DNA of 59,539 nucleotides from Anaeromyces robustus (lineage: Eukaryota; Neocallimastigomycota; Neocallimastigomycetes; Neocallimastigales; Neocallimastigaceae), in assembly GCA_002104895.1 (NCBI GenBank), contig MCFG01000409.1, forward strand, positions 1 to 59,539, read 5' to 3'. Under the pieces are notes generated by a model. That model worked only from the letters and a program-made list of their open reading frames with translations, made no database searches and was not told the DNA's origin. Of this stretch, positions 1-51,830 are shown one piece after another (position 1 is the first letter of the stretch; each line of letters starts with the position of its first letter). A program made the translations under genes and the position numbers.

Positions 1-3000
1 AAGTATTAACGATGGCTTGGACGCAATTAAAAAAGGAATTATTGAAGAAGTAAAAATAGTTTTACCAGAATTTAAATTTACTGACGAGAATGAAATTGTT
101 AAAATTTTTTAACGACATTAAAAATCATACAAGTAGGAAAATTGTTCTTATTATTGATAACTATGATTACGTATTAAGAAAAAGTAACAAAATTAATAAT
201 ATAAAACAAGATGATTACTTAGTTTACTTACAATTCTTGAATATATTAGTAAGTGATAAATCGTATTTGGCTTTAGTTTACATGACAGGTATTTTACCTA
301 TCAAAAAATATAGTGATCAATCAGAACTTAATAATTTTAATGAATATTCAATGATATCACCATTTGGATTGGAAAAATATTTTGGTTTTCTTGAAGATGA
401 AGTTAAAGAATTATGTAGAAAGTTTAATATCCCCGTAGAACAAAATAATTCATATAGAAACAATAATGAATTATTAAATGATAGAGAAAAAAAAATGAAC
501 TTTAATATTATTAAAAGTTGGTATGGTGGTTACAAGTTAATTGATAGTGAAAATAATTATGATGTATATAAACCATGGTCAATTATAAAAGCAATTGAAG
601 ATAAAACTATTAGTAATTATTGTGATGAATTATCAACAATAGAATCAATTACTAAATATATTGAAATAAATTTATTTGGATTAAAAGACATTATATTTTT
701 ATTAATGAATTCGAAAAAAATAAAAATAAATGTAACATCGTTTAAAAGTGATATGATAATATTTAAAAATAAAGATGATATTTTAACTTTATTTGTACAC
801 TATGGTTTTTTAGGTTATGATAGTAATACGAAAGAAGTATATATACCTAATGAAGAACAGCGTATAAATTTTAAAAATTTTATCAAATCAGAAAAATGGA
901 AAATTTTAAATACCAAAAGAGATATTTTTAATCCTGATGAAGAAAACTTTGAAAATATGTTAAATTCCAAATATTATGTAGATAAAACAGAATCAATACT
1001 ATATTTAAATAAAAAAGTCAATACAAAAGAAAAATATATATGTGATTCTAGACCTGCAGGTTTTGGAAAAACAACAACAGCTGAAATGATTTCAGCATAT
1101 TACAGTTTTAAAGAAATAAGAAAAAGTATTTTTAATAATAAAAAAATCTCTAAAAGCGAAAATCAAAACTGGGATAAATATTTAGGAAATTTTAATGTCA
1201 TTAAATTAAATATGAAGAAATTCTTCGATAATGGGGTAAGTATTAACGATGGCTTGGACGCAATTAAAAAAGGAATTATTGAAGAAGTAAAAATAGTTTT
1301 ACCAGAATTTAAATTTACTGACGAGAATGAAATTGTTAAAATTTTTAACGACATTAAAAATCATACAAGTAGGAAAATTGTTCTTATTATTGATAACTAT
1401 GATTACGTATTAAGAAAAAGTAACAAAATTAATAATATAAAACAAGATGATTACTTAGTTTACTTACAATTCTTGAATATATTAGTAAGTGATAAATCGT
1501 ATTTGGCTTTAGTTTACATGACAGGTATTTTACCTATCAAAAAATATAGTGATCAATCAGAACTTAATAATTTTAATGAATATTCAATGATATCACCATT
1601 TGGATTGGCAAAATATTTTGGTTTTCTTGAAGATGAAGTTAAAGAATTATGTAGAAAATTTAATATCCCCGTAGAACAAAATGATACATATAGAAACAAT
1701 AATGAATTATTAAATGATAGAGAAAATGAAATGAACTTTAATAATATTAAAAATAGGTATGATGGTTACAAGTTAACAGATGGTGAAAATAATTATAATG
1801 TATATACACCATGGTCAATTATAAAAGCAATTGAACATAAAAGTATTGAAAATTATTGGAATAACTCATCAACAATAGAATCAATTACTAAATATATTGA
1901 AATAAATTTATTTGGATTAAAAGACATTATATTTTTATTAATGAATTCGAAAAGAATAAGAATAAATGTAAAATCGTTTAAAAGTGATTTGACAATATTT
2001 AATAATAAAGATGATATTTTAACTTTATTTGTACACTATGGTTTTTTAGGTTATGATAGTAATACGAAAGAAGTATATATACCTAATGAAGAACAGCGTA
2101 TAAATTTTAAAAATTTTATCAAATCAGAGAAATGGAAAATTTTAAATAAAAAAAGATATATTTTTAATCCTGATGATGAAAACTTTGAATATATGTTAAA
2201 TTCCAAACATTATGTAGATAAAACAGACTCTATACTATTTTTAAATAAAAAAGTCAATACAAAAGAAAGATATATATGTGTTTCTAGACCTAGACGTTTT
2301 GGAAAAACAACAACAGCTGAAATGGTTTCAGCATATTACAGTTTTAAAGAAATAAGAAAAAGTATTTTTAATAATAAAAAAATCTCTAAAAGCGAAAATC
2401 AAAACTGGGATAAATATTTAGGAAATTTTAATGTCATTAAATTAAATATGATTGATTTCTTCGGATATAGGAAAAGTATTAACGATGGCTTGGACTCAAT
2501 TAAAAAAGAAATTATTGAAGAAGTAAAAATAGTTTTACCAAAATTTAAATTTACTGACGAGAATGAAATTGTTGAAATTTTTAACGACATTGAAAATCAT
2601 ACAAGTAGGAAAATTGTTCTTATTATTGATAACTATGATTACGTATTAAGAAAAAGTAACAAAATTAATAATATAAAACAAGATGATTACTTAGTTTACT
2701 TACAATTCTTGAATATATTAGTAAGTGATAAATCGTATTTGGCTTTAGTTTATATGACAGGTATTTTACCTATCAAAAAATATAGTGATCAATCAGAACT
2801 TAATAATTTTAATGAATATTCGATGATATCACCATTTGGATTGGCAAAATATTTTGGTTTTCTTGAAGATGAAGTTAAAGAATTATGTAGAAAGTTTAAT
2901 ATCCCCGTACAACAAAATGATACATATAGAAACAATAATGAATTATTAAATGATGGAGAAAATGAAATGAACTTTAATAATATTAAAAGTTGGTATGATG

Positions 3001-3135
3001 GTTACAAGTTAACAGATGGTGAAAATAATTATAATGTATATACACCATGGTCAATTATAAAAGCAATTGAACATAAAAGTATTGAAAATTATTGGAATAA
3101 CTCATCAACAACAGAATCAATTACTAAATATATTG
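1..3135 (+). repeat. Direct tandem repeat, 1236-bp period (three units)
   Basis: The string AAGTATTAACGATGG recurs at 1, 1238 and 2474. The second interval is exactly 1236 bp (412 codons); the first is 1237 because of the extra T near 105. Identity is very high over most of each unit, with scattered amino-acid changes. Similarity ends in unit 3 around 3135, where the protein reverts to a different C-terminal version of the middle region. This indicates unequal exchange or tandem duplication within one gene. Confidence 0.9.
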
Positions 3136-3407
3136 AAATGAACTTTTATGGATTAAAAGAAGATATACTAAGATTAGTTAAAGAAAACAAAAAAATAAAA
3201 ATAAATGTAACATCTTTTAAAAACGATATGAAAGATTTTAAAAGTAAAGACGATGTATTTACTATGCTTGTTCATTTAGGATATTTAGGATATGATCAAA
3301 TAACAAATGAAGTATTTATACCTAATAAAGAAATACAAAATGATTTTTTAAATATTACTAAATCTGTAGTATGGGATGCTATTGCTGAAAAGTTAAAAAA
3401 AATCTAA
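1..3407 (+). pseudogene. Tandem-triplicated AAA-ATPase-like gene, 5' end outside window, frameshifted
   Basis: The family (AAA-ATPase_like, usually fused to a C-terminal PD-(D/E)XK nuclease) is expanded in anaerobic fungi; its function there is unknown. An open frame of 1105 codons starts at 90, but that ATG is artificial. The true frame enters from base 2 and is broken by a sixth T at 105-110, where the other two copies have five. Three near-identical 412-residue units follow head to tail. Each holds a Walker-B-like strand (IIDNYD, Asp at residues 23, 435, 847), a middle region, and then the start of the next ATPase (FNPDEENFE, YVDKT). Walker-A-like loops are at residues 320-330 (SRPAGFGKTTT) and 732-742 (SRPRRFGKTTT). 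Family members usually read IDEYD, so the usual Glu is Asn in every copy. The fusion joins the end of the middle region to the next ATPase start, so internal copies lack the nuclease. Copy 3 diverges near its end, from about 3135. Confidence 0.8.
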
Positions 3408-7231: not shown

Positions 7232-9772
7232 ATGTTAATAAAAATAAAAATAATAGTATTATTTTTTTTAGGTAAAATATAATATATATTTATAGTCATT
7301 TTTTATTATTATCTAATTTTATTTTTATTTTTATTTTTTATTTTATATTTATTTTTAATTTATTTTTTTTATTTTTTAACTTATTATATTTATATTATAA
7401 ATTATATATATATATAAATAAAGTTTATTATGTTTCCGCTATCACACCATTTATTGGAGAAGGTAAACGGGCTAAATTTTTTGAATTAATGGATGATGAA
7501 ATTCCAATATTTAGAATCCATATAACCGAGGAAAATTTTAATGAATTAATAAAAAATGCTCAAACAAGTATTAATATGGGTGATATAGGTGATTTAGGTG
7601 ATTTTGGTGATAAGGGAGATATGGGAAAAGGAAGTCTTAATATCTTTGGTGAAAAATACACTATTAATAATGCTACAATGATAGTTGAAATTAATGGGTA
7701 ATTTTTTTTTATTTTATTTTATTTTATTTATTTATATATATATTTATCTGTATAATACCTTTTATTTTATATCTATAATATTATTAATATAAAGTTTTTA
7801 TTTTCATTCTTTTATTACCATATAATACCTTTTTTTTTTTTCATATCTATAATATTATTAATAATATTATTTTTTCATTTTTTATTACCTTTTTATTACA
7901 TAAATATATAAATATGTCTTTTTTTATATTTCAAATATTTTTATTATTTATTAATTTAATATTATTTTTATGTATCATAATTTTTTATTTTAATATTATT
8001 AATAATTATTAACGTTATTTTTTTTTTGTTATTTTTTTTATATTTGTTTTTTTTTTGTTTTTTTTTTTATATTTTTTATTTTTTTAATTTCCTTTATTTA
8101 TATATGTACCATCCATCTATATATAAAATATAGAAAAAAGGAATCATTTAATTCAGTTAAATTTTCTATAGGAGGAAGTTCTTCACGTATTTATGGTAGA
8201 CAAGCTTTTAATCTTAAAATTAAAGATAAAAAAAAGGATTTATATGGTCGTAAACAATTTAGAATTCGTTCTGATGCTCGTGAAGCTACTTATTTAAGAT
8301 CAAAATTATCCTGTGATATGCATAATCGTTTAAATCTTTTATCTATTGCTGCTAATTATATGTTATTATATATTAATGATCAATATTTTGGTATTTATAT
8401 TATAATGGATGCTCCAAAAGAATCATGGGCTAAATTAGAATTTAATGATGAAAATTCAAAAAATTTATATAAATGTAAAAATGGTGGAGCCATTTTATCC
8501 GGGATATCAACAGCGAATACTTGTAAAAATGAAAATGATAAAATTACGGAGAATTCGGAATGGCTTGAATTTTTAGATAGGGTTGAAAAAGCTCAAAGTC
8601 CAGATGAGATTGAAGATATTTTTGATATTGATCAATTTTTATATGAATTAGTATTTGAGTATTTAACCGGTTCATGGGATCATTTTCTTAATGCTGCCCA
8701 TAATTTTAGTATGTATAAAAATCCAAAAAATGGTAAATGGACCATTATTTATTATGATTTTGATGCAGATATAGGTCAAGATGTTTATAGTATAGAAATG
8801 GATTTAAATCCTAGTTCTAATGATAATGATCATAATAAACCTAATGTTAAAGATTATATAGAATGTACTTTTAAAGAATGGGCCAATAAACCTCCTCAAT
8901 GGACTAATCAATCACGTCATATTCTTGATCTTTTAGTTTTTAATAATACTACACGTTTTGATAATATACTTCAAAAATTTGTAAAGGAAGTTTTTAATCC
9001 AAGTACTCTTTACCCTCATATTGATGAATTAAAAAAATTTATAAAACCTCATATATTAAAAGATAAAACTCCAAATGAAAATGGAAAATGTCCAGGAGTA
9101 ATTAATGAATTTGGATCGGATTATACTTTTGAACAATGGGATGCTAATAGTGAATTTACTTCTATATCTGGTAGTTTTGGTATTAAATATTGGATTCTTG
9201 CTAAATACAGATATATTTGTAAAAGTTATGGAATGGAATGTGATCCAATATATATGGATGAAAATTATAATTATCCTGTTAATAAAGAAATTGAAGGTAA
9301 TCCATTAGATTCATGGATTACCAATAATAAAAATAATAATAATGATAATAATGATAATATCAATAATAATAATATCAATAATAATATTAATAATAATGGT
9401 GATGATGATAAAAATGATAAAGATAAAGATGATATTAATCCATCACAAAGTTCAGAACCAGGAAAAAAAGAAGAACCAGTCTATAAATGTTGGTCTGAAC
9501 TTATTGGATATCCATGTTGTTCAGAAGGAAATAATATGGTATATGGTCATGATGATTATGGGGATTGGAGTTACGATTTTCAAAAGAATATATGGTGTGG
9601 TCTTGATGCCTATCATGAACCAATAAATGATGAAGAATGTTGGTCAGAAATTTTTGGTTATCCATGTTGTAAAAGTTGTGTTGTTTATGAAGAAGAAGAA
9701 GAATATGGTAAATGGGGTTATGAAAATAATCAATGGTGTGGTATTCAATCTTTCTGTAATTCTTCAAAATAA
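7232..9772 (+). CDS. Secreted CotH-family protein with two C-terminal fungal dockerins (3 exons)
   Basis: Proposed exons are 7232-7271, 7424-7697 and 8134-9772, joined in frame (1953 nt, 650 aa). Exon 1 supplies a hydrophobic signal peptide continuing into exon 2 (LFFLVYYVSA). The CotH (spore-coat H kinase-like) fold follows: IPIFRIHI, then the conserved GGSSSRIYGRQAF spanning the start of exon 3, RSDAREATYLRSKLSCD, and the putative catalytic region SWDHFLNAAHNF...YYDFDADIG, where SWD and DFD are the positions expected for catalytic/metal-binding Asp. An Asn/Asp-rich linker (about 9320-9440) leads to two CBM10-like dockerins, CWSELIGYPCC...WCG and CWSEIFGYPCC...WCG. Such dockerins attach proteins to the fungal cellulosome; dockerin-bearing CotH proteins are known in gut fungi, but their substrate is not established. 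The exon 1 assignment is inferred from frame and splice sites. Confidence 0.85.
7272..7423 (+). other. Intron 1 of the CotH-dockerin gene
   Basis: GTAAAA donor after a phase-1 base, AAAG acceptor; 152 bp. Joining restores codon GTT and an open frame from the signal peptide into exon 2. Confidence 0.75.
7698..8133 (+). other. Intron 2 of the CotH-dockerin gene
   Basis: GTAATT donor and ATAG acceptor; 436 bp of T-rich DNA. It is phase 2, and joining gives a Gly codon and links the VEIN end of exon 2 to KKESFNSVKF of exon 3, continuing into the conserved CotH core. Confidence 0.8.
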
Positions 9773-17881: not shown

Positions 17882-19510
17882 ATGAAAACTTTATATATTT
17901 TATTTATTAGTCTTGCTGTTAAAGCTTACGCTGAATGTTGGTCAGAAGAACTTGGTTATCCATGTTGTTCAAAATACATTAGAGAACCAAGTTATATTAA
18001 TGATGAAGGTAAATGGGGTCTTGAAAATGGTAATTGGTGTGGTATTTTAGATATAGAACCAACTACCACTACTACTACTACCACCATTAAATCTACTAAA
18101 ACTATTCCAACTGTAAGACGTAATTGTCCAATCTTTACTTTCTCACCAGAATTATGTACTAGACAAGGTGGTGTTGCTTCTGCTGTTACTAGAAATGGTT
18201 GTTCAACTCCAACTTGTGTTATTAATAAAAAGGTAGAAGAAGTTCCAGTTGTTAATAATGATGATGATGTAATTCCAGTTACTACCACCATTAAATCCAC
18301 TAAAACTATTCCAACTGTAAGACGTAATTGTCCAGTCTTTACTTTCTCACCAGAATTATGTACTAGACAAGGTGGTGTTGCTTCTGCTGTTACTAGAAAT
18401 GGTTGTCCAACTCCAACTTGTGTTATTGAACAAAAACCAACTGAAACCGTTAATGATGTTATTGAAACTTTCCAACCAGAACCAGAAGAAATTGATGAAT
18501 GTTGGGCTAGAGAATCAGGTTATGATTGTTGTTCCGAAGATAACCAAAAGGTTATTTACACTGATGAAATGGGTTCATGGGGTTATGAAAATGATAATTG
18601 GTGTGGTATTATTGTAAAGAAACAAGAAGAAGAAGAACAACAACCAATTAAATCTTCTAAAACTATTCCAAGAGAAAAATGTCCATTCTATACTTACTCA
18701 CCAGAACAATGTACTAGACAAGGTGGTGTTGCTTCTATTGTTACTAAAAATGGTTGTCCAACTCCAACTTGTGTTATTGAACAATTACCAACTGAAGCTT
18801 CCCAACCTGTACCAGAAGAAACTAATAATAATGTTGTTGCTGCTGCTGATGAATGTTGGGCTAAAGAATTTGGTTATAACTGTTGTTCCAAGGATAACCA
18901 AAATGTTATTTACACTGAAGAAATGTATTCATGGGGTTATGAAAATGATAATTGGTGTGGTATTGTAAAGGTTCAAGAAGAAGAAGTACAAGAAGAAGAA
19001 ATACAAGAAGAAGAACCAATTAAATCTACTAAAACTATTCCAAGACAAAATTGTCCATTCTACACTTACTCACCAGAACAATGTACTAGACAAGGTGGTG
19101 TTGCTTCTATTGTTACTAAAAATGGTTGTCCAACTCCAACTTGTGTAATTGAACAATTACCAACTGAAGCTTCCCAACCTGAACCAGAAGAAACTAATAA
19201 TAATGCTGTTGCTGCTGCTGATGAATGTTGGGCTAAAGAATTTGGTTATAACTGTTGTTCCAAGGATAACCAAAATGTTATTTACACTGAAGATATGTAT
19301 TCATGGGGTTATGAAAAAGATGAATGGTGTGGTATTGTAAAGGTTCAAGAAGAAGAAGTACAAGAAGAAGAACCAATTAAATCTACTAAAACTATTCCAA
19401 GACAAAATTGTCCATACTACACTTACTCACCAGAACAATGTACTAGAGAAGGTGGTGTTGCTTCTATTGTTACCAGAAATGGATGTCCAACTCCAACCTG
19501 TGTTTTTTAA
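17882..19510 (+). CDS. Secreted multi-dockerin protein alternating with a repeated Cys4 module
   Basis: Intronless, 542 aa. It begins with a clear signal peptide (residues 1-17, likely cleaved after AYA). Four CBM10-like dockerins (CW-x-EE/KE-x-GY-x-CC ... WG-x-E ... WCG) lie at residues 18-55, 206-242, 324-361 and 448-484. Between and after them are five copies of a compact module with the spacing C-x9-C-x14-C-x4-C (residues 82-112, 150-180, 267-297, 391-421, 510-540), each introduced by KSTKTIP-like text and containing QGGVAS and GCPTPTC. Acidic and Thr linkers separate the parts. No catalytic domain is present, unlike most dockerin proteins. It could bridge or crosslink cellulosome components, or the Cys4 module may bind a carbohydrate or act as a cohesin-like partner. 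I do not recognise the module, so that role is inference. The start is fixed by the signal peptide. Confidence 0.9.
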   Translation: MKTLYILFISLAVKAYAECWSEELGYPCCSKYIREPSYINDEGKWGLENGNWCGILDIEPTTTTTTTTIKSTKTIPTVRRNCPIFTFSPELCTRQGGVASAVTRNGCSTPTCVINKKVEEVPVVNNDDDVIPVTTTIKSTKTIPTVRRNCPVFTFSPELCTRQGGVASAVTRNGCPTPTCVIEQKPTETVNDVIETFQPEPEEIDECWARESGYDCCSEDNQKVIYTDEMGSWGYENDNWCGIIVKKQEEEEQQPIKSSKTIPREKCPFYTYSPEQCTRQGGVASIVTKNGCPTPTCVIEQLPTEASQPVPEETNNNVVAAADECWAKEFGYNCCSKDNQNVIYTEEMYSWGYENDNWCGIVKVQEEEVQEEEIQEEEPIKSTKTIPRQNCPFYTYSPEQCTRQGGVASIVTKNGCPTPTCVIEQLPTEASQPEPEETNNNAVAAADECWAKEFGYNCCSKDNQNVIYTEDMYSWGYEKDEWCGIVKVQEEEVQEEEPIKSTKTIPRQNCPYYTYSPEQCTREGGVASIVTRNGCPTPTCVF

Positions 19511-29085: not shown

Positions 29086-31476
29086 CTATCCTATTCCACT
29101 AGGGTCGGAAATAGGATCGGCATTTGCCCTACTAGGCTGTCCTACTGTGTTATCAGCATTGACGTTCCTGGAGAGGTTGGTTTTAAATTTATTGAACAAT
29201 ATATGTTGTCTTTTACAGACAACAGGCATGATATCATTCAATAGAGCCGCAGATCGCAACAAGAATGGGGATTTTGAATAAGTACCAGATTCAGTCTGAC
29301 ACTTAAACAAACATTCCCATTCCATTTTGTATGGACTATCGTTAATTCTATCACTAAAACCATAATCCCTTCCACCAATTAAAAAAATATAAATACTATA
29401 CCTATTAACTATTTTTTTATTACCTAATATATCTATATTACTAATACAATTAAACCTCATATTATTACTATTTTTATAACCCTTAACAATACTATTAATT
29501 CTATTATCCACACTAGGGTTATTACTGGTCCTAACTAAACTATTAAAAAGACTATCTAAAAAATAAAAAAAATTTCTATCTAGATCAGAGAAGTGATCAA
29601 TACGAAGATTTTTAAATAAGAAACAATTTATAAACCAATGATCAATTCTCTGATAACTGTCACAATGGAAACAACATGAACAACAATTAGGACAAGAATT
29701 ATTAATCATTTTTGCAGCTTTAGCAACTCTAGCATCGATTTTATATCCACATCTTGCCCTAAGTATCCACCTAAAACCTTTGCTATATTCAGGATATTCT
29801 AGATTAAGTTTTAAGTAATTCCTTGATTCTTCAAATTTGTACATTTTATAAGTTTTAGCTTTAATTGATTTATCACTGTTCATGTCTCTGTCCCAATAGA
29901 ATTCCATAATTTCTTTAGAAGAGGATGAAATATTGTTTAATTTATCATTTAATATTTTACTTTCTTTGTCCCAAGTCCATTTTCTTGTTGTAGCAACATT
30001 ATTAACTATCTTAGAGATAATGCAGTTGGAGTCCTTCCACTTATTAAAACATCTAACCTGAGCTAAAGCACATTTACCAGAAAGTGGAGGAATATTGAGT
30101 TCTTTTGAGATGCAATAAATAGAAACAAAAGAATTAGGTTTCGAGTAGCCTAAAATCCAATAAAAACCTTTGTTAATTATTGTTTGTGTAGAACTAGTAT
30201 TGTTTTTGTTAGAACCAAGCAAAGGCGCGTAATAGGAAACTTGTCCAATAACTTTTGCAGAGAATAAAGTTCTTTTAAGAGGAATAGGAATCAGATCATT
30301 TTTTAAAAAACCCTGAATTGAAAACAAAGCCTTACTAACTTTATTTTTCATTTTACTAATAACGAATTTTAAATCTAGAGATTTGTGAAAGGGAACACCA
30401 AGGTAAGTATAACAATCTGTTTTAGGGATTGGGATTCCTGTTAAATAAAAGGTAGGGTCTTCTCTAAGAATATATTCCGAATTTTCATGTCTAACAGCAA
30501 ATGTGGCACATTTATTAATTCCAAAAGTCATCTCATTGTCCTTAGCCCATTTACTAACTGAGCGAAGAAGTTTATTCATACGAGATCTACTAGGGGCACA
30601 AAGAACAATATCATCAGCAAATAATCCTCCACAGCAATATTCAGTATCTATTTTCACACCATTATGCAGGCAATCGTTGAAGATGTCGTTGATAAACAAA
30701 TTAAAAAGTATAGGAGATAAGGGACATCCTTGTCGAACTCCTTTAAGTATACTGAAGGAATCGGAAAATTGTCCATTAATTTTAACACAAGCTTTGGAAG
30801 ACAGATATAGGTTCTCCAAAAATTGAAAGCATTTTCCTTGTATACCAAGGGTATAAATTTTCGATAAAATGTTATAGATGGGCACAGAATCGTAAGCTTT
30901 TTTAAGATCCAGAAAAGCTAAATAAGTATCTTCCCCTTTGAATTTACGTCTTTGACAAATAGAAAGAATAGAGATAAAAAGACTAATACATTCTTCCTTA
31001 TTCCGAAAGCCAAATTGTTCTGGTCTAATGAATCCATGACTTATACCATATTCAGAAATTCTAGAAGCAATAATTTTCGAAAGAATCTTAATACCATTAT
31101 TGATAAGAGAGATACCACGATAGTTATCACAATTAGAAAGATCGCCTTTTTTTGGGATAGAAACAATGGATGCATTATTCCAAAAAATAGGAAAATCACC
31201 ATTCCAAATACGATTAATTAAGAAATGGAAACAACTAAGACCAGCCGGAATATAGGAATCATTATTTGCAGAGTCATCTGAAGAGGAATCAGGAATTAAA
31301 GCTTTATAAAATTCAATAGGGATACCGTCGGGACCCGAGGCTTTAAAGTTAGGGATAGAAAGGATGGCCTTTTTGATTTCTTCAATGCTGATATCTTGGT
31401 TAATATCCCATACTATGTTATTTCCACTCTTTATACGATTGATAGCGGGAGAATACTTCCAGAATTTTTTATTCAT
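29086..31476 (-). pseudogene. LINE reverse transcriptase with C-terminal zinc-binding region
   Basis: The open frame gives 796 aa. It shows the RT order expected of LINEs: FKASGPDGIPIEFYK, SIPKKGDLSNCDNYRGISL, QFGFRNKEEC, FLDLKKAYDSV, KGVRQGCPLSPILFN, the catalytic FADD box (GLFADDIVL), and YLGVPF downstream. Near the C-terminus the Cys/His cluster CPNCCSCCFHC...HWFINC matches the zinc-binding tail of many LINE proteins. The ATG used here is probably internal: the frame upstream is open back to a TGA at 31522-31524 and continues as the endonuclease beyond it. A single nonsense codon therefore divides what was one polyprotein. Confidence 0.88.
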
Positions 31477-31521
31477 GCTATGTCCAGTAGAGTCATTACT
31501 AAGTTTCTTATAATAATTACA

Positions 31522-32364
31522 TCAAACATCTAATTGATCTTTAGTACTATACACTAAGTTATCTTGGTGGTCTCTGATAGGATGAGGTATAAATAACTCC
31601 TGATTGTTATTTTTAATATTCTTCTTAATCCATGACCATGATTTTCTGCTGTCATTTTTTAAGGTAGCCTCGCAGCCTATTTTAATCCAAAATAAATAGT
31701 TTTGTCTTCTAAATTCATTACATTTTTTATGAATAGATTGGCATAATTTATTATAAGATGCAACAAGGATAATAAATTGATTAGGTTCATAATCTAAATG
31801 GCTCTTTTTAATTTGTCGATACTTCAAGCTTTTAATTCTTTGAAGACAGTAAATATTACGTGACATATGGAACATTGATTTCCTAATTTCAGTAGAAGAT
31901 GTAATTTCAAGATCCTCTGCAATTGAATTAGATGTATCAATAAACTTATCAACTAGATCATCAATAGAAAGATAAGGATTATTAAAAATCTCATTATTTA
32001 AAATAGCAAACTTGTTATTGTCAACAATATCGTTTTTCATTTCCTTACAGCGAATTCTATTCCATTGAACAACCTTTTTTGGGTGAGTAAAGGAGAGATC
32101 AACAAAGTTTTTCTTACAATATACTAGCATTGGTTTATGATCAGAGACTGGGTGATAATCAATAAAAGAAGCATACGATATAAGGTTCAACATTTTATAA
32201 TTAACCAAAGCATGATCAATATCTGAAGATAGATTACCTTGAACCCAAGAGATTCTTGAACTATTGAGAGGTAAAATCATCCAACCATTAATTTGTGATA
32301 TTTTTTCTTCAAGGTCCACTGTTTTCATGTTAAAATCCCCAACAAGAATAGAAGCATGATCCAT
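31522..32364 (-). pseudogene. LINE endonuclease C-terminal fragment
   Basis: 280 codons beginning MDHASILVGDFN. GDFN and, later, YHPVSDHKPM are the catalytic Asp/Asn and Ser-Asp-His blocks of the exonuclease-endonuclease-phosphatase fold used by LINEs to nick their target. The first roughly 140 residues of that fold are missing because the element is 5' truncated. The frame ends with TGA at 31522-31524, in phase with the reverse transcriptase frame. Confidence 0.85.
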
Positions 32365-33674
32365 AAAATTTATTAATAAAAAAAAATAATAATTAATATT
32401 TATCTTTATAGTTTGTATAAAAATTTATATTTTATAATTAAATTATTCATTGAAATAATAAACAATTGAATTTATTTAAAAATTATTTATTTTATATTTA
32501 TTAATTTTTTAATTTTTTTAATTTAATTTTTACTTTTATATTATTCGTTTATTATTTTTAAAAAAAAAATTTCTATATTATAAAATTCTATAAATTACTA
32601 ATTATTATTATTATGATTTAAAATAATATTTTATTTATATTAATTAAAATTTTATTATTTAACTGTTTTATACTTGTATATTATAATATTATATTTTTTT
32701 AAAATTATCAAGTATAAAATTTATAATTGGTAATAATTCACATAATAGTATTTGTTTTTTTTCGAAAAATGGTTGGGGGTATACCAAGTGTTTAATGATA
32801 AGAATGTTACTTTGACTGAAGATGTTCAATTAATGGGTTCAGTATGGATTAGTCATATGTACTTCTTATGATGAATTAGAAGTTATTAATTATATTTACA
32901 ATGAAGTAAAAATTTTAAAAAATGAATAATAAGCATTTCAAAAAGTATGTCACATCAACATAAAAAATTGTATTCTTAAAAAAAGAAGAAAATAGTCAAA
33001 CCAATATAAATATTGATAATTATTATTACCAAAAAAAATTGAAATTATTAAATATTAATAATTTCAATTTATTTTAGTTGAAATATTATTAAATATTTCA
33101 ACTAAATAAACCATGAAATTTATTACCATTTAGTCAGAGAGTAAAAAAATTCCATTTATAGTCGAAATATGTTTAAATAATAAAAAGATTATACTTATGA
33201 TTATATCCCGGTTTTATTCTAAAAATACTATAATATAATATAAAATAAAATAATATAGAATCTAAATAGTATAATTTCTATTTTTATTATATATGATATT
33301 ATAATAATGATTTACTACTTTTAATTCTAAACTAAACGACTACATTAAAATAATAAAATAATTTCGATATAGTAAAAATAACAAAAAAAAAAAAAAATAA
33401 TTAAATATAAAAAATAAAAATTAAATGAAAAAGAAAAAATAAAAATTATATAAATATAAATATATATAATAAACAAATAAGTAGAAAAAAAAAGGAATAT
33501 ATTACATAAAATAGAATAAGTATTTTATAGTAAGCAATAAAATATAAAAATAAAAAATGGAATATAATTATTAAAAAAAAAAAAAAATAAAGAATTTTTC
33601 TAAAAGTTAATAATATTTTAAATACTAAATAAATCTATTTATTATTATAATTATAATTAATTGGTTTGTTATTA

Positions 33675-34316: not shown

Positions 34317-37259
34317 TTACCTATGTAAATATTTCTTTAAATAAGAATTTTTATAATTTAATGCAATATTTAACGGTATTTCACCATCTTTATTTTTTTT
34401 ATAAATATTTGCCCCATGTTCAATTAAATATTTTACAATATATTTTACAGTGATTCTATTACAATAATTTTTACACGCAAAAAATAATGGTGTTTCACCA
34501 TCTTTATTTTCTTTATTGATATCTGCACCATTCTCAATTAAACATTGTACAATATTTTCATCTCCATGGATACATGCATAAAATAATGGTGTTTCATGAT
34601 TAAAGTTTTCTTTATTTATATCGGCTCCAAGTTCAATTAAACATTTTACAATATTTTCATTTCCACGTCTACAGGTATGAAATAAGGGTGTTTCACCATA
34701 TTTATTTTCTTTATTAATATCTGCTCCATGATCAATAAGATAAGTTACAATATTTTTGACAACTATTTTATTAATATCACTTTTACATGCAAAAAATAAT
34801 GGGGTTTCACCATCTTTATTTTCTTTATTAATATCTGCTCCAAGTTTAATTAAATATCTTACCAATTTTTCATAACCATTGATACATGCTACAGATAATG
34901 GTGTTTCACCATTCCAATTATTTTCTTTATTTATATCTGCTCCAAGTTCAACTAAATATTTTATGATATTTTTATTTCTACCTCTATAGGCACTGAATAA
35001 TGGAGTTTCTCCATTTCCATCTTCTTTATTAATATCTGCTCCAAGTTCAATTAAATATTTTACAATTTTTTCATTTCCATTTTCACAGGCATAAAATAAT
35101 GGAGTTTCACCTTCACTATTTTCTTTATTAATATCTGCTCCAAGTTTAATTAAATATTTTACCATATTTTCATCTCCATATTCACATACATTAAATAATG
35201 GTGTTTCACCATCAGAATCTTTTTCATTGATATCTGCTCCATGTTCAACTAAACATTTTATCATGTTTTCATCTCCATTTTCACATGCCACTGATAATGG
35301 TGTTTTCCCATCAAAATTTTCATTATCTATATATGCTCCATGTTCAATTAAGTACTCTACTATATTTTCATATCCATTGACACATGCATTGAATAATGGG
35401 GTTTCACTTTTAATATTACTTTCATTTAGTTTTGCTCCATGTTCCACTAAATATTTTACAATATTTTCATAGCCATTTCTACAGGCATGAATTAATGGCG
35501 TTTCCCCATTCCAATCCTTTTTATTGATATAGGCTCCATGTTCAACAAGATATTTTACTATTTTTTCATGTCCATTGGAGCATGCATAAAATAATGGTGT
35601 TTCACTATTTGGTGTTTCACTATCCCCATTTTCCTTATTTATATCTACTCCACATTCTATTAAATATTTTACAATATTTTCATATCCATTGGCACATGCC
35701 ACAAATAATGGCGTTTCCCCTAATTCATCTTCATTATCTATAAATGCTCCATGTTCAATCAAATATTTTACAATATTTTCATAGCCATTTCTACATGTTT
35801 CGAATAACGGTGTTTCACCATCATTATTTGCTTTATTTACATATGCTCCATGCTCAATTAAATATTTTACTATATTTTCATGTCCATTATAACAGGCCCC
35901 AAATAAAGGTGTTTCACCATCTCTATTTTTTTTATTGATAGGAGCGCCAAGTTCAACTAAATATTTTACAATATTTTCATGACCATTATAACAGGCATCA
36001 TATAAAGGTGTTTCACCATTTTCATTTTCTTGATTTATATCTAATCCTAATTCAATTAAATATTTGACAATATTTAAGTTCCCATTTTTACAAGCAGTAA
36101 ACAATGAGGTTTCATTATATTTATTGACTTTATTGATATCTGCTTCATATTTAATTAAATATTTTAAAATACTTTCATGTCCTTTTTCACAGACAATAAA
36201 TAATGGTGTTTCCCCATCTCTATCTTCTTTATTTACATCGGCTCCATATTCCATTAAACATTTAACAATATCCTCATTACCATTTTTACATGCCACATAG
36301 AGTGGTGTACGACCATTTCTATCTTCTTTATTGATATCTGCTCCATGTTCCAATAAATATTTTACTACATTTTCATTTCCTTTTTTACAAACATAAAATA
36401 AAGGGGTAAGACTATCTTTATTGACTTTATTTATATCTGCTCCATGTTCCATTAAATATTTTATAATATTTTCATTTCCATTTTTACATGCTTTGAATAA
36501 TGGAGTTTCACCATATTTATTTTCTTTATTTATATCTGCTCCATGTTCTATTAAATATTTTACTACATTTTCATTTCCTTTTTCACAAACAATAAATAAT
36601 GGGGTAAACCCATTTTTATTTTCTTTATTTACGTTAGTTCCTAGTTTAATTAAATATTTTATAATTTTTTCATTTCCATTTTTACATGCTTTGAATAACG
36701 GAGTTTCACTATTTTTATTATATTTATTGATATCTGTTCCAAGTCTAATTAAATATTCTACTATATTTTCATTTCCTATTTCACAGGCTTTAAATAAATA
36801 TTTATTACTATCATGGATACCATAATTATAATCTTGATTTTTAAAAAATATATATTTTTCAAATTTACGATTTAATTCAGTAGTTGTTATAGGTATTTTA
36901 TTTTTATAATATAAAAGTAAATTTAAAATAAACTCATTATCAAAAAATTTAAAATGACTAAAAATAATATCTAATAAGTCAGTAAAATTATCTTTGATTA
37001 AACATTTTATTAAATTTGATGATATATTTAAATATTCAGTACAATTTTCAACTATAAATTTTAATCTTTCACAAGTTAATAAATCTTTATTAAATATTTC
37101 AAATACAATATCTTTTTTGTTATTAATATTATTATTTTTCCTATTAATTAAAGATTTTATTTTTTTAATATTTTTGTTATTAATAGCTTCTACATATGAA
37201 TCAATTGAAAAATCATTATTATTAATATTTAATTCATTTTCATTTAAAACAATACTCAT
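34317..37259 (-). CDS. Large ankyrin-repeat protein (about 24 repeats)
   Basis: Intronless, 980 aa. Residues 1-150 form a helical, Asn/Ile-rich N-terminal region without repeats (FFDNEFILNLLLYYKNKI). From about residue 155 to the end there are 24 well-formed 33-residue ankyrin repeats with consensus ETPLF-ACxNGxENIVKYLIEHGADINKENxDG, and a partial capping repeat. Repeat 12 carries a 5-residue insertion (SETPN); repeats 21 and 24 contain short insertions before the second helix. No signal peptide, membrane segment or enzymatic domain is present, so an intracellular binding or scaffold role is likely but the partner is unknown. High similarity among repeats indicates continuing internal duplication. 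The N-terminal region resembles the protein encoded at 55054-56241. Confidence 0.92.
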   Translation of the reverse strand: MSIVLNENELNINNNDFSIDSYVEAINNKNIKKIKSLINRKNNNINNKKDIVFEIFNKDLLTCERLKFIVENCTEYLNISSNLIKCLIKDNFTDLLDIIFSHFKFFDNEFILNLLLYYKNKIPITTTELNRKFEKYIFFKNQDYNYGIHDSNKYLFKACEIGNENIVEYLIRLGTDINKYNKNSETPLFKACKNGNEKIIKYLIKLGTNVNKENKNGFTPLFIVCEKGNENVVKYLIEHGADINKENKYGETPLFKACKNGNENIIKYLMEHGADINKVNKDSLTPLFYVCKKGNENVVKYLLEHGADINKEDRNGRTPLYVACKNGNEDIVKCLMEYGADVNKEDRDGETPLFIVCEKGHESILKYLIKYEADINKVNKYNETSLFTACKNGNLNIVKYLIELGLDINQENENGETPLYDACYNGHENIVKYLVELGAPINKKNRDGETPLFGACYNGHENIVKYLIEHGAYVNKANNDGETPLFETCRNGYENIVKYLIEHGAFIDNEDELGETPLFVACANGYENIVKYLIECGVDINKENGDSETPNSETPLFYACSNGHEKIVKYLVEHGAYINKKDWNGETPLIHACRNGYENIVKYLVEHGAKLNESNIKSETPLFNACVNGYENIVEYLIEHGAYIDNENFDGKTPLSVACENGDENMIKCLVEHGADINEKDSDGETPLFNVCEYGDENMVKYLIKLGADINKENSEGETPLFYACENGNEKIVKYLIELGADINKEDGNGETPLFSAYRGRNKNIIKYLVELGADINKENNWNGETPLSVACINGYEKLVRYLIKLGADINKENKDGETPLFFACKSDINKIVVKNIVTYLIDHGADINKENKYGETPLFHTCRRGNENIVKCLIELGADINKENFNHETPLFYACIHGDENIVQCLIENGADINKENKDGETPLFFACKNYCNRITVKYIVKYLIEHGANIYKKNKDGEIPLNIALNYKNSYLKKYLHR

Positions 37260-37337
37260 ATTTTCATTTATACTAATAAATATTAATAAAAAATAAATAA
37301 AAAAAAAAAAACATGAATAAAATTTTTTATACTTTTT

Positions 37338-39237: not shown

Positions 39238-40320
39238 TACTATTATTATTATTGATTATTTTTCATTATGTTTATCTTAATTATTTGTTTTTTTTATTTA
39301 TTTAGATAATAATATATAATAACAATTATAATATTATTTAAAATTGAACATGGAATTGATATAAGTAAAGAAAAAAAAATAATTATAGACTATTAATTAA
39401 AACATAAAAAAATAGAAATAAAAATATATAATAAAACATTGAGCAAACATTAATAAATAAATATATAAAGGAAAAATGTCATTATTTAAATAATGTTTGA
39501 AGATATGGATAAAATGTTTAATTGTATTAAGAAAATAAAAATAATTGGATATGAAATAAAAAATAAATATATATAATATAATATAATATTTTTATGTCAT
39601 TTTTCATTATTAATATCATAATCAAATATTTTTCATTATTAATAATGAAAAATGACATAAATTAAATTTTGGTTTCATCTTTACAATTATTGTCATATAA
39701 AATTTAAAAAGATAATATATATATTATATAACATTTAAAAGTATATTAAATACTAATGTTAAAAAATAATAATAATAATTATTATTATTATTATTATTAT
39801 TATTAAATAATTAATAAATAATAATAAATAATAAATAATAATGGGATGATGATGATGAATAATTATTATAATTTATTATAATAATAAATCATGGTAAAAA
39901 TAATATAATATAAAATAATAATAATTGTTAATTATATCTAAAAATAGTAATACATTAAAAATTAATTGAAATAAATTAAAATGATTTATTAAATTTTATA
40001 ATTTTAATGAAATATTATTTATTGATGAATAATAAAAAAATTAATTGAATTAAAGTTTTTATTATAAAACATTTCAAATCATCTGCAAAAGTGAAGATAA
40101 AGATAATAGAATTAAAAATCTAATAAAGTAACCGAGAAAAAAATAAATATAAAAAAATAAAAAAATAAAAAATAAATAAATGAAATAAAAAAAATTAAAT
40201 AAATAAATAAAAAATTAAATAAATAAAAATATAAAAAAAAAGAAAATAAAAAAAAATTTTTTCTTTCAAAAAAAAAAAAAAATAAAAAATAAAATAAAAA
40301 TAATAAAAAAAATAAATAAA
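39238..40320. other. Intergenic region upstream of the membrane-type CotH gene
   Basis: Low complexity with a perfect hairpin (separate entry) and ATT/ATA triplet runs at 39765-39845. The final 200 bases (AAATAAATAAA...) are the probable 5'UTR. No promoter element is distinguishable. Confidence 0.45.
39592..39660. repeat. Perfect 23-bp inverted repeat (hairpin)
   Basis: Left arm 39592-39614 (TTATGTCATTTTTCATTATTAAT) pairs without mismatch with 39638-39660; the spacer is 23 bp. The right arm also contains the palindrome CATTATTAATAATG. Confidence 0.85.
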
Positions 40321-42135
40321 ATGAATAAAATATTTATTATATTTTTATTAGTATTAATTTATACTATTAATGCTAAAGCATCTGTTGAATTTAAAGTAAT
40401 ATGTACACCTCATGAATATGGAGGTGAAAATGGTATGTCTGTTAATATTGATGGAAAATCTTATCCTATGAAAAGTAAAGATGATGATATTTTATATGAA
40501 TATACGTATGATGGAGGAGAACCAACAAAATATTATTATGAAATTGCTGGTACTGAACAAAATGAACTTTCTTTAATAGATAATGAACCAAGAACATGGG
40601 AAAAAGGAAAAACTTCTACATTATATGAAATTTATGGACGTAAATATACTGTAGGAGATTCTATTCTTAAAACAATTCCAAGACTTTATGAACCATTAGC
40701 AGGTTATGATAAATTTTCAGAACTTTTCCAAGAAGCAGAAGTTCCAGTCATTCATATTCATATGACCCCAGAAATTTATAATGAATATATTAGTTTAACC
40801 TCTAATACAGAACCAAGATATACCGTTTCATTTGATTATTATACTCCTGAAAAATTATATCAATTTACTAATGTCACTTTCAAACTTTCAGGTCAAGGAT
40901 CCACTAAATATGATAAGAAACCATTAAAAATTGATTTATCTAAAGGAGATACGGATAAATCCAATACAGAAATTTTTAAACGTGAAGAATTTAAATTACG
41001 TTGTTTACGTATTGATGAATCGTATGTTAGAAGTAAAATGTCCATTGATATTGCAGAATCTTTAGGTTTACCCGTTATTCAAAGTAGTTTTGCTAGACTT
41101 TATATTAATAATAAATCTTTTGGTTTTTATGAAGTTGCCGATTTATATAAAAAGAAATTTGTTAAAAGATTTTTTAATGTAGAAAAACCAGATTTAGGTA
41201 ATCTTTATAAAGGTTCATCTGGAGATGGTCCAGCTTTTTTATATCCTGGAGAAGATCATTATGAAGTTATTGTTACTAATAATGAAACAGATCCAAAGGG
41301 AGATTTACATGATTTAATGAATTGGTTAGTAGAATTACCGGATAATGCTACCAAGGAACAAATTGAAGAAAAACTTGAATTAGATACAGCTTTAAAGTAT
41401 CTTCTTCTTGAAATGTTAATTTGTCATTGGGATGGTTATTTAGGAAATGGTAATAATTTTTGGATCTATTCTGAACCTAAAAAGGGTAAATTTCATTTTA
41501 TATCAGGAGATTTTGATAGTACTTTAGGTAAATGGTGTAGAGCAACAGAATATGATATAGATGAATATATTACTTTAGGACCAGAAGGTAAAACTTATTC
41601 TAAAGAACCCTTACTTTATACTAAACTTATAAAAAATCCAGAAATTAGACCACTTTTCGAAGAACTTTTAAAGAATGTTGTTGGTAATTTATTTAATATT
41701 GAAGCTTTAGGTCCAAGACTTAAATATTTTTATGAATTTTTAAAACAAGATATGTATTGGGATGCTCAATGTTTAGATCCTAATTCCTCCTTCCATATAC
41801 CCACTCATGATTTTAAAGGTAATGATGATAGAGAAAGAGCTACACCTGAAAAAATTGATGAACATTTTTCCGATACTGCCACTAATCCTGAAGATAGTGT
41901 TACCGCTTATATTAAATTAAGATCTGCCGCTTTACAAACTAAATATGGTATTCCTGAATTAAAAGCCAATGGTAAATATGGTACTGTTGGTGGAAGAATT
42001 GTTAAAAAGAATAAAAAGGGAGATACAACAGAAGGTGGTGATGGAATGAATTTAAAAAGTAGTGATGGCTTTATTACTAAACCATCTATTTTAATGATTA
42101 CTATAATAACTATTTTAATTAGTTTAATATTATAA
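40321..42135 (+). CDS. CotH-family protein with N-terminal signal and C-terminal hydrophobic (GPI-type) tail
   Basis: Intronless, 604 aa. Residues 1-20 are a signal peptide (FIIFLLVLIYTINA). A beta-rich N-terminal part (to about 130) precedes the CotH kinase-like domain: VPVIHIHMTPEIYNEY, LSGQGSTKYDKKPLKIDLSK, RCLRIDESYVRSKMSIDIAE, and the putative catalytic segment HWDGYLGNGNNFWIYSE...GDFDSTLG, which contains both expected Asp residues (HWD, DFD). The C-terminus has a Ser/Gly/Lys-rich spacer and a terminal hydrophobic stretch (SILMITIITILISLIL), as in GPI-anchored proteins; CotH proteins at the surface of other early-diverging fungi have the same layout. Unlike the CotH gene at 7232-9772 it carries no dockerin. 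It therefore probably acts at the cell surface, possibly phosphorylating surface proteins as bacterial CotH does. Substrate unknown. Confidence 0.9.
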   Translation: MNKIFIIFLLVLIYTINAKASVEFKVICTPHEYGGENGMSVNIDGKSYPMKSKDDDILYEYTYDGGEPTKYYYEIAGTEQNELSLIDNEPRTWEKGKTSTLYEIYGRKYTVGDSILKTIPRLYEPLAGYDKFSELFQEAEVPVIHIHMTPEIYNEYISLTSNTEPRYTVSFDYYTPEKLYQFTNVTFKLSGQGSTKYDKKPLKIDLSKGDTDKSNTEIFKREEFKLRCLRIDESYVRSKMSIDIAESLGLPVIQSSFARLYINNKSFGFYEVADLYKKKFVKRFFNVEKPDLGNLYKGSSGDGPAFLYPGEDHYEVIVTNNETDPKGDLHDLMNWLVELPDNATKEQIEEKLELDTALKYLLLEMLICHWDGYLGNGNNFWIYSEPKKGKFHFISGDFDSTLGKWCRATEYDIDEYITLGPEGKTYSKEPLLYTKLIKNPEIRPLFEELLKNVVGNLFNIEALGPRLKYFYEFLKQDMYWDAQCLDPNSSFHIPTHDFKGNDDRERATPEKIDEHFSDTATNPEDSVTAYIKLRSAALQTKYGIPELKANGKYGTVGGRIVKKNKKGDTTEGGDGMNLKSSDGFITKPSILMITIITILISLIL

Positions 42136-43051: not shown

Positions 43052-43852
43052 TTATTCTTCAGTTTCTTCTGGGACATATGGGTCAAGTTGTTTAATTGGT
43101 TTAGCTGGATTACCACAAACTACAGTATTAGATGGAATATCTTTGGTAACAACACTACCAGCACCAACAACAACATTATCACCAATAGTAACACCTGGTA
43201 AAATAGTAACATTAGCACCAAAGAAACATTCATTACCAATACGAATTGGTTTAGCAATATTAATACGTGGTTCTCTTTTATAATTTCTTTGTTTATAATC
43301 AAGAGGGTGAGTAGCAGTAATAAGTTGACATCTTGGACCAAATAAACAAGCCTTACCAATAGTTACTTCGGCATTATCTAAAATCATACAATCATAATTC
43401 ATAAAACAATTATCACCCATATGAATGTTGTAACCAAATTCACAAATAAAAGGTTTTTCAATAAAAACATCATTACCAACATGTGGACAAAATTCCTTAA
43501 GCATTTTATTTCTCTTAAGAGCATCATTACCACTAGTAGCATTAAATCTATCAACGAAATTTTTACATTGTATACGATCAAACATAAGTTGAGGAATCAT
43601 AGAATTGTAGGATAAACCAGATTTCATTCTTTCAATTTCAATGTTGGTATCTTTTTCCATATTTTCTTCAAATAATTGTCTGTAGTAATTCTTTTTTTCT
43701 TCATCAGTTAAACTGGAGACATCTTCAACTTTACTTAATGCTTTATTTTTTTCTTCTTCAGTAATACTATCAACTCTTAAATCAACATAGGCCTTATTTA
43801 AAAACTTTTTAATAAGACTATCTTTTAAGTTATTTATAGCACCGAAAACCAT
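43052..43852 (-). CDS. Maltose O-acetyltransferase-like (left-handed beta-helix) acetyltransferase
   Basis: Intronless, 266 aa. The enzyme family transfers acetyl from acetyl-CoA to sugar hydroxyls. Residues about 75-110 ([18 protein letters not shown]) match the N-terminal 'Mac' helical domain of bacterial maltose acetyltransferases. Residues about 125-255 are hexapeptide repeats: [47 protein letters not shown] (with the expected catalytic His), [48 protein letters not shown]. The first ~70 residues are an acidic, helical extension that bacterial enzymes of about 185 aa lack. There is no signal peptide, so it is cytosolic. The gene has cleaner codon use than neighbouring repeat-protein genes. 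Bacterial origin by transfer is plausible, but not shown here. Confidence 0.9.
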
Positions 43853-44527
43853 TTTTATTTATTTTATTAATTTTATTTATTAATAGATTATTTATTTATT
43901 TTATTATTATTTATTTATTTACTTATTATTTATTAATTAGATTATTTATTTATTTTGTTATTTATTTATTTATTTACTTTATTATTTATTTATTTTATTA
44001 TTATTTATTTATTTACTTTATTATTTATTTATTTTATTATTATTTATTTATTTATTTTATTATTTATTTATTTTATTATTATTTATTTATTTACTTTATT
44101 ATTTATTAATTAGATTATTTATTTATTTTATTATTTATTTATTTATTTATTTACTTTATTTTTTTTTTAAAAAAATAAAAAAAAAAAAGAAATTTTTCTA
44201 TTTTTTATAGTTTCAAAAATTTATCCTATTATATTTATAAAAGGATAAAATTAATAATTAAATAATATATTAAAATTAATATATTTAAATTATATTTAAA
44301 TTATATTTAATTATATAAAAATCATATAGAATTCAAATATATTCAAATTAATTCTAATATATGATTAATACGAAAAAGAAAAAAATCCGTGTTTAAAACA
44401 AACCACAATTAAATAAAAATTTTGCATTATATATGAAAATATAAAACATAATATATTATATTATATTATATTATATTATATATTATATATACTAAATTAA
44501 ATTAATAAAAATGTATTAAAATTTCGC

Positions 44528-46091: not shown

Positions 46092-49000
46092 TTAATATTT
46101 CTTTAATTCATATAAAATTTGTTTTCTAAAATTAAATAATAAATTTTCGTTTTGATATTTGGTTAAAGTATCCGCCAAATTATATTGTGATTTAATATAT
46201 TTTAAATTTATTATATCGTTTTTAATAAGTTCGCGAATTTTATGATATCTGATATTTATGTGTCTTGATTTTATATTTATTGTTTCATTTTTGCTTATAT
46301 AAATTGCTGCTTTATTATCTATATTTATTGTAATATTTTTAATGTTAATTTTTAATTCATTTAATAAATTAATTAGCCAAACACATTTTAACGCGCATTC
46401 ACTTAGGCTATAATATTCACTTTCTGCTGTTGATATTGAAACACAGTGTTGTAGTTTTGAATACCAAGTTATTGGTGTTCCACCCATTGTAATTATAAAT
46501 CCACTTGTGGACCTATATGTTTCTTTGTCACCTGCAAAATCAGCATCAACAAATGCTTTAATATTTATATTTTTATTATATTTTATTCCATAATATTTAT
46601 TTGCATTTAAATATTTAAAAATTTTTAATACATTATACCAGTCTTCATAGGTAGGATTTTTATTCTTTCTGGAAGCTTTACTAACAGCAAATAAAATATC
46701 TGGCCTGGTACCCATGGCTAAGTATAATAAGCTGCCCACGGCTTGCATATATAATTTTGAATCAAATTTTTCATTTCTTTTATTTTCGTCTTCTATATAA
46801 ATCATATTTGATGATTTATTATTTTCTTTAATATTAAATTTTTCTAAGATTTTTTCTAAATATAATAATTGATGCAAAATATAACCATTTTCACATTTTA
46901 TAAATTTTATTCCAATTATGAAATCTACTAAACCAATATCAGTTAAATCTAATTCATTTTTTAATTGTAATTTAATTTTATTAATATTATTTATATTACC
47001 ACAAATTAAAATATCATCCACATAAACTGCAATAATGCAAATTATTTTGTTTTCATTATTTAATTTTATATATATACATGGTTCATTTTTTAATCTTATA
47101 AATTCCAATTTTGTTAATATACTATCTAATTTATTATTCCACATTCTTCCAGCTTGTTTTAAACCATACAATGCCTTTTTTAATTTCCAAAATTTATTCT
47201 TATTATTCTCTACACCTTCAGGAATTTCTAAGTATATGTCATCTTCAAGTTCAGCATTCAAATATGCTGCTTTTATATCTAGTTGATAAATATCAAAATT
47301 ATAATATAATGAAATACAAATTATAATTCTTAATGAATCTTGTTGTAAAGTAGGTGAAAAAGTTTCAATATAATCTATAAGATAAATTTGTGAAAATCCT
47401 CTTGCAACCAGTCTTGCTTTGTACTTTATAATCTCCCCCTTGTCATTTTTCTTGTAAGTGAAAACCCACCTAGTAGAAATTATATTTTTACCTTCTGGAA
47501 TGTTGTCTATGATTTCGTAAACTTCTTTTTCTTTTAAGTTATTTAATTCCACATCTATTGCTTCCAACCATTTGTTTTTATCTTTTCTCTTAAATATTTC
47601 TTTAAAATTGTTAGGAGGTGATATTTCACTATCAAAAACTACTACTAAATTACTTACATATCTTGATTTTTTAATGTCATTTGTTATTTCGTCTATATTC
47701 TTTCTCTTTTTTACATTATATATTTTTTCTTTGTTATCATTTCTAGTGATATTATCATTTAGTTTATTGTTGTTGTTATTTAAATAATTATTATTTGAGT
47801 TGTTTATTTTATTTGTATTATTTTTATTTGATTCATAATTATTATTTAAATTAATACTTTTATTATTTAAATTATTGTTATTATTTGTTAAATAATTATT
47901 ATTTAAATTATTATTATTTAAATTTTTGTTTAAATTATTATTGTTTTCATTGTTATTTAAAATTTTATTATTTAAAACTTTACTATTGTTTTCCATATTT
48001 ATTCTATTAATATTATTATTTGAATTTTCATTATTGTTTTTATTTTTATTTAATTCAATATTATTATTTAAATTTTCGTTGTTGTTTTTATTTTTATTTA
48101 ATTCAATATTATTTTCTTTATTTAATATATTTTCAGTATTGTTTTTCTTTAAATTTTGTTGTTGAATGTTTTGATTTAAATTATTTAAATTGTTAATGGA
48201 ATTATTTTCTAAGTTATTAATATTATCACTTTTATTTTTATCAAGTTGATTTTTTGAATTTACATTATAGTATTTATTGTAATCAAAATATTCATCAAAT
48301 GAATTATTTTTATTTTGTAAATTATTTTCATAAATTGTTGGATTAAAATAATTTGGATAATATGGATAATAAGCATAATTTGGAATAAAATAATTATTAT
48401 TATTAGGAGGATATGAAAGATAATTATATAATAAATTTTTGTTGTTTAATAAATAATTAATATTATTATTATTATTATAATTTTTGTTATATAAATCATA
48501 TAAATTATTATTTGTATAATTATATAAATTATTATTTGGGTAATTGACATTGTTATATAAATTATTATTATTTAGATAATTATTGTTATATAAATTATTA
48601 TTATTTGAATAATTATTATTATATAAATTATTATTATTATTTGGAATATTATTAATATTATTTAAATTATTGTTAACATAGTTTAGTTTATTATCTGTAC
48701 TATTTATATTATTATTTGTGTCTATATTATTTAAATTGTTTTTTGAGTTATTATTTGTATTATTTGAATTGTTGTTATTTGTATTATTTAAATTGTTATT
48801 ATTTATATTATTTAAATTGTTATTATTTATATTATTTAAATTGTCATTATTTATATTATTTAAATTGTTATTATTTGTATTTATAGAAGAAATAGAAACG
48901 ATATCATCATCATCTCCCCCGATTTCATAATACGGAATAAAATTAATAGTTTCTGGAATGGAGGAAGGAGATGAAAAATTACCTGGAGTATCTTCAAAAA

Positions 49001-51768: not shown

Positions 51769-51830
51769 TTTTTAATTTTTAATTTATTATTATATAATAT
51801 TCCTTTTATTATTTAAAAATAATTTGAGTC

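Follow-up and report, generated by a model that had tools for sequence, protein, structure and literature searches.

A multi-dockerin protein of Anaeromyces robustus carries an undescribed four-cysteine module and may serve as a cellulosome connector

The window considered here, a stretch of 59,539 nucleotides that makes up contig C345 of the Anaeromyces robustus genome, contains at positions 17882..19510 of the forward strand one open frame, running from ATG to TAA and encoding 542 residues plus stop. The protein begins with a signal-peptide-like N-terminal stretch, MKTLYILFISLAVKAYA (17882..17932, +), which is resembled by the N-terminus of a paralogue, P0002 (MKTLFILFLIFVVKVYA); judging by this start, which was recognized by eye, the protein is probably secreted. 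Nine units follow on the same strand. Four of them are dockerins, located with Pfam (CBM_10) and with a dockerin profile: D1 (17933..18043), D2 (18497..18607), D3 (18851..18961), and D4 (19223..19333). The other five, located by their cysteine pattern and referred to here as Cys4 modules, are M1 (18125..18217), M2 (18329..18421), M3 (18680..18772), M4 (19052..19144), and M5 (19409..19501), the last of which ends two residues before the C-terminus.

A preliminary description of this DNA had reported four dockerins and five C-x9-C-x14-C-x4-C modules in a single frame, and both counts were borne out. The whole ORF matches CBM_10 (PF02013) with 137.4 bits, against a curated cut-off of 23, in four stretches, and the cysteine pattern occurs in five exact copies (residues 82–112, 150–180, 267–297, 391–421, and 510–540); when the protein was shuffled 20,000 times, the pattern appeared once in 26 of the shuffled sequences and more than once in none. 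The two kinds of unit are interleaved as had been described, although the alternation is not strict, because the order D-M-M-D-M-D-M-D-M places M1 and M2 side by side. Likewise, the two motifs that had been ascribed to the modules are each found in four of the five copies: QGGVAS is replaced by EGGVAS in M5, and GCPTPTC by GCSTPTC in M1. All 36 cysteines of the protein lie inside the nine units, 16 in the dockerins and 20 in the modules. The eight linkers between units measure 23–37 residues and are rich in T, E, and P; a tandem repeat search found just a 15-base linker repeat. Without its signal-like stretch, the protein has a computed mass of ~58.9 kDa and a pI of 4.4, which is distributed unevenly, the dockerins being acidic (4.1–4.3) and the modules neutral to basic (7.9–9.0). 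No N-glycosylation sequon is present in the protein.

The dockerins are of the fungal kind. All four match the fungal dockerin/CBM_10 family, represented by PF02013 and by the Piromyces equi structures 1e8p and 2j4m (Cel45A), to which they show sequence matches, and in the alignment they retain the cysteine and tryptophan pattern of 1e8p. They differ from the dockerins of Piromyces equi Cel45A in being interleaved with a new module and in having no recognized enzyme attached. In this regard, the earlier claim of an enzyme-free protein agrees with the Pfam search, where CBM_10 was the sole passer among the nine families listed and no enzyme family rose above its cut-off; neither a cohesin nor a bacterial dockerin family appeared among these nine matches, up to an E-value of 10.

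A second gene of cellulosome type lies in the same window, where a CotH kinase-like protein with a C-terminal CBM_10 dockerin is encoded at 8006–9772 (+), perhaps from 7276; one dockerin stretch was detected by Pfam and two were seen by eye. Another CotH protein is found at 40219–42135 (+), with no dockerin in the Pfam search. The remaining frames include a 1115-residue protein with three AAA-ATPase_like (PF09820) stretches (60–3407, +), a 1006-residue frame made largely of ankyrin repeats (34317–37337, −), and a hexapeptide acetyltransferase with a maltose-acetyltransferase capping motif (43052–43858, −), which by look resembles a frame close to the P0002 gene (L037, 165–830). By eye, a copia-type LTR retrotransposon-like frame (46092–51771, −) and a LINE-type reverse transcriptase-like frame (29086–32424, −) were also recognized. 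Finally, a DUF2262 frame is present at 58687–59244 (+) of this fungal scaffold; Pfam calls DUF2262 conserved in bacteria.

The public model of the multi-dockerin gene, and its best protein match, is P0001 (BCR32DRAFT_237870), a partial protein of 382 residues. It is the same as the 542-residue frame up to residue 53, lacks the following 149 residues, and with them M1 and M2, restarts just before D2, and ends at residue 531 of the full frame, within M5, which is thus shortened. The omitted stretch (about 18042..18488, +) would fit a GT...AG intron of 447 bases, whose apparent splice bases were deduced from P0001 and the closest GT and AG. Since the stretch keeps the reading frame and its two modules resemble the remaining three, its omission is most simply read as a modelling error; real splicing of the stretch is possible. 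Proteome searches against P0001 would miss part of the protein, since two modules are absent and a third is shortened. The A. robustus gene encoding an array of 11 Cys4 modules (C48, described below) had no counterpart in the predicted-protein searches. Together with the incomplete P0001, this indicates that gene models do lose such genes.

To place the dockerin content in context, 98 retrieved proteins and the window frame were compared; these 99 sequences were chosen by similarity and are not a survey. Our own dockerin profile, applied at a permissive threshold so that partial stretches were included, gave 51 proteins with three dockerins, 37 with two, 5 with five to nine, 3 with four, 1 with a single dockerin, and 2 with none. 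Two of the three entries with four dockerins are the window gene itself. The preliminary description had set the protein apart on two grounds, and neither is supported as it was put. The first was that one to three dockerins are usual: in this similarity-selected sample three is the commonest number (51/99). The second was that a multi-dockerin protein without an enzyme is exceptional: P0080, a metagenome protein of 491 residues, has six CBM_10 stretches by Pfam (nine dockerin-like ones by the looser profile), T/K-rich linkers, and no enzyme family, so that the enzyme-free multi-dockerin arrangement is not unique. Unlike the window protein, P0080 is devoid of the Cys4 module.

The module, in turn, is not confined to the window. 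Searches of the genome found it at four or more A. robustus loci (the window, C173, C48, and C255), counts that are lower bounds, in frames of up to 549 residues and in 21 copies: 5 in the window protein, 4 in P0002, 11 in C48, and 1 in C255. The paralogue P0002 (BCR32DRAFT_328973, contig C173) is an intact protein of 438 residues that shares with the window protein the two kinds of unit and a similar N-terminus, but its order, D-M-D-M-D-M-D-M-D, is strictly alternating, with a dockerin at both ends. Five dockerins were found in it by our own profile and four stretches by Pfam; the third lacks the last tryptophan in the alignment, and the fifth likewise by eye. Its modules are 38–51% identical to M4. 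The C48 gene (L036, 3941–5467, −) is an intact frame with a signal-like start, 11 tandem Cys4 modules, and no dockerin; few base differences separate its last eight modules, and 8 of the 11 carry an NCT sequon at the second cysteine. The third paralogue, at C255 (L038, about 2431–2759, +), has a dockerin and then one Cys4 module, but its gene is interrupted by a stop and a change of frame. Beyond these loci, two metagenome proteins, P0092 and P0098, contain six modules each and no dockerin by Pfam. The profile search with the modules that had been proposed at the outset thus yielded P0002, the C48 array, the C255 remnant, P0092, and P0098 as further carriers.

The profiles behind these searches were built from 20 modules and later from 29, the latter forming an alignment (A3) that combines the 12 metagenome copies with 17 of the 21 from A. 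robustus. A first protein search scored the best 7,993 candidates by shared words; when the protein collection was searched by profile, four proteins came up at E-values up to 10 among 3,371 candidates, and with the 29-module profile, at E-values up to 5, the 98 retrieved proteins contained none beyond P0001, P0002, P0092, and P0098. Among the candidates scored, which covered a limited length range, no predicted protein from another named genus carried the module, and the C48 protein used as query had no match at an E-value of 0.01 among 917 candidates. None of the 136 pattern stretches in GTDB contigs or the 31 in viral contigs was confirmed as the module, and plasmids gave no module match. 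Two weak rows obtained with the 20-module profile, P0069 (E-value 0.45) and P0086 (1.1), were rejected as carriers, because the 29-module profile gave no row for them at an E-value of 5. A genome match on C42 (E-value 0.49) was also discarded; its frame has no module-profile match and resembles a membrane protein of unrelated kind. Among the proteins found, the interleaving of dockerins and Cys4 modules occurs in A. robustus only. Since the module was found only in this species and in two metagenome proteins, it is not a core part of the cellulosome.

Choice-of-anchor-A domains may occur in ScaA. A frame of 2247 residues on C579 (about 176595–184674, −) includes a partial choice-of-anchor-A domain, a vWA-like stretch seen by eye, and a long repeat of KCxxC type; it was considered as a scaffoldin and set aside, as its cysteine-rich repeat differs and the Cys4 profile has no match in it.

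The four cysteines are invariant in 29/29 modules of A3, where identity to the first row falls to 23%, and this invariance suggests two disulfides per module. The spacing between the third and fourth cysteines is 4 in every module of A3; that between the second and third is 14, except for 13 in two P0002 copies and 15 in the C255 remnant, and that between the first and second ranges from 7 to 14. Most copies in A3 keep G-C-x-x-P-x-C. Directly after the first cysteine, an aromatic [FY]-x-[FY] segment, counted by eye, is present in 15 of the 17 A. robustus modules of A3, compared with 3 of the 12 metagenome modules, and might be a candidate binding platform. The likeness of the units inside the window protein mainly reflects recent duplication, given that their bases are nearly identical (of 93 positions, 2 are changed between M1 and M2 and 1 between M3 and M4) and that substitution is mixed, pS exceeding pN in five of the ten module pairs (the four with M5, plus M3/M4) and pN exceeding pS in five, with very few changes involved. 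Among the dockerin pairs pS exceeds pN in five of six, by a modest excess. The case for a constrained module would thus rest on the distant copies, namely those of P0002, C48, P0092, and P0098.

No significant match to Pfam, to PDB sequences, or to folds was obtained with single modules, which upholds the original view of the module as undescribed. When the 29 modules were compared one by one with Pfam, the best hit was to an unrelated family, NotI, at an E-value of 0.061, and no carbohydrate-binding module family other than CBM_10 was matched by a Cys4 unit. The window protein scores 35.6 bits (cut-off 30) against the CefA RiPP peptide family of NCBIfam (NF038108) in three stretches, the best at 387–429; P0092, P0098, and C48 have no match to it, and we tentatively read the score as a match of cysteine spacing. 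Similarly, the 32.6 bits of the C48 array against DUF333 (PF03891; cut-off 25), where none of the stretches passes singly and 1 of the 29 modules has an E-value of 0.079, may represent a sum over biased repeats. Kinship between module and dockerin was rejected, the comparison of their profiles giving a probability of 1.5%. The predicted structure of the module, a check that the preliminary description had called for, is a small helix plus β-hairpin (mean pLDDT 81) that gave no significant fold match. The full-length model is of low confidence (mean pLDDT 51), and a fold search with it returned the two dockerin structures (E-values 0.006 and 0.03), with no other match below an E-value of 2. All together, the Cys4 modules form a genuine family, undescribed in the libraries searched; a literature search, with most subscription papers outside its scope, found no description of the module or of the window protein.

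A role for the window protein in bridging or ligand binding, as suggested at the outset, would have to be deduced from its composition. The reading that we tentatively prefer, at somewhat less than an even chance, is that of a secreted, enzyme-free accessory or connector of the A. robustus cellulosome. Dockerins D1–D4 would anchor the protein in the cellulosome at more than one point, and the Cys4 modules on their T/E/P-rich linkers would form a second arm that binds another partner, be it a plant polymer, a fungal wall glycan, or a glycoprotein; by such multivalent binding, cellulosome parts could be joined to a second surface. We favour it on two grounds: arrays made of the module without dockerins exist, and [FY]-x-[FY] is kept in 15/17 A. 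robustus modules. The dockerin matches, the lack of a catalytic family above its cut-off, the invariant cysteines, the predicted helix plus hairpin, and the dockerin-bearing CotH protein in the same window count for it too. The scarcity of the aromatic segment in metagenome modules (3/12), the mixed pS/pN values, and the finding of the module only in A. robustus and two metagenome proteins count against it. The protein shares with the ScaA-group scaffoldins a repeat-rich, enzyme-free, and cellulosome-related character, but ScaA exceeds 500 kDa according to a passage of PMC8262932, compared with ~59 kDa for this dockerin-bearing protein, whose module was found at just four loci, a lower bound; the same source describes a wide range of sizes among classified fungal scaffoldins (PMC8262932).

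Small cysteine-rich modules in a row could just as well act as a stiff spacer. The modules would then be a protease-resistant stalk and the dockerins the sole binders, cross-linking scaffoldins, an explanation that we consider unlikely but deserving of attention. It would fit tiny cysteine-rich repeats with variable surfaces set within T/E/P-rich linkers, the 11 tandem copies of C48, the last eight nearly alike in their bases, and the lack of significant similarity between single modules and the families searched. Yet if spacing were all that mattered, one would not expect most copies to keep G-C-x-x-P-x-C or the A. robustus paralogues to retain the aromatic segment, and in the proteins with 11 and 6 modules there are no dockerins to space. 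The existence of these dockerin-free arrays (C48 with 11 modules, P0092 and P0098 with six each) indicates that the module is more than a dockerin spacer; because it occurs independently of dockerins, it probably also functions in its own right.

Rather less probable is that the window dockerins recognize glycans or glycoproteins instead of a cohesin. The protein would then be a glycan cross-linker, and its Cys4 units, like its T-rich linkers, would act either as glycosylated acceptors or as spacers. In 2007 Nagy reportedly observed a fungal dockerin binding a glycosylated GH3 enzyme. The T-rich linkers of the window protein and the NCT sequons in 8/11 C48 modules are compatible with this possibility, but the window protein itself has no N-glycosylation sequon. 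The dispute over the partner of the fungal dockerin also speaks for it, two mass spectrometry reports, as cited in a passage of PMC4601266, having named catalytic proteins. The binding of a recombinant fungal dockerin to scaffoldins, stated with a KD of 994 nM (PMC8262932, in the part consulted), speaks against it.

Two further explanations seem to us improbable to a like degree. In the first, the gene is a recent, lineage-specific product of tandem duplication, without settled function and possibly little expressed, as the near identity of M1 with M2 and of M3 with M4 and the broken C255 paralogue might suggest; against this, its frame is intact, all its cysteines fall inside the nine units, and intact paralogues exist at C173 and C48. 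In the second, the Cys4 module would give fungal cellulosomes a second kind of receptor, one that recognizes dockerins, glycoproteins, or wall glycans. Two interaction systems would then be joined by the window protein and P0002 as adaptor scaffoldins, and the C48 array would be a small scaffoldin to match. If so, the protein would work like bacterial adaptor scaffoldins, from which it differs in matching no cohesin or bacterial dockerin family in Pfam. This second possibility is limited by the rarity of the module, at four or more loci compared with the 26 or 32 scaffoldins given for A. robustus in passages of PMC8665504 and PMC12341934, and by the >500-kDa size of scaffoldins (PMC8262932).

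The least probable proposal is that the module is cohesin-like and binds dockerins, with the window protein as adaptor scaffoldin and C48, which looks like a small scaffoldin (a signal-like start, then only repeats, 11 modules), as its companion; modules neutral to basic beside acidic dockerins would suit it, and the fungal cohesin is still termed elusive or unknown in the passages concerned (PMC8262932, PMC10485095), but we doubt it strongly, since four or more loci with frames of up to 549 residues fall short of the 26 A. robustus scaffoldins stated in part of PMC8665504, or of the 32 in PMC12341934 (from a column with the 71.69-Mbp assembly, whose attribution to the species is inferred), fungal scaffoldins are said to exceed 500 kDa (PMC8262932), the choice-of-anchor-A frame of C579 has no module-profile match, and no module was found among the candidates scored from other named genera, yet dockerin–cellulosome binding across species is stated (PMC4601266). 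With four loci found and frames of this length, it is improbable that scaffoldins of >500 kDa are built from this module as their repeat.

In the passages of the literature that bear on the subject, the partner of the fungal dockerin and the attachment of the cellulosome to cells are described as unresolved (PMC8262932, PMC10485095, PMC4601266). An enzyme-free protein that combines dockerins with an orphan module, along with the C48 array, in which the same genome encodes that module without dockerins, would provide a small set for testing a second interaction.
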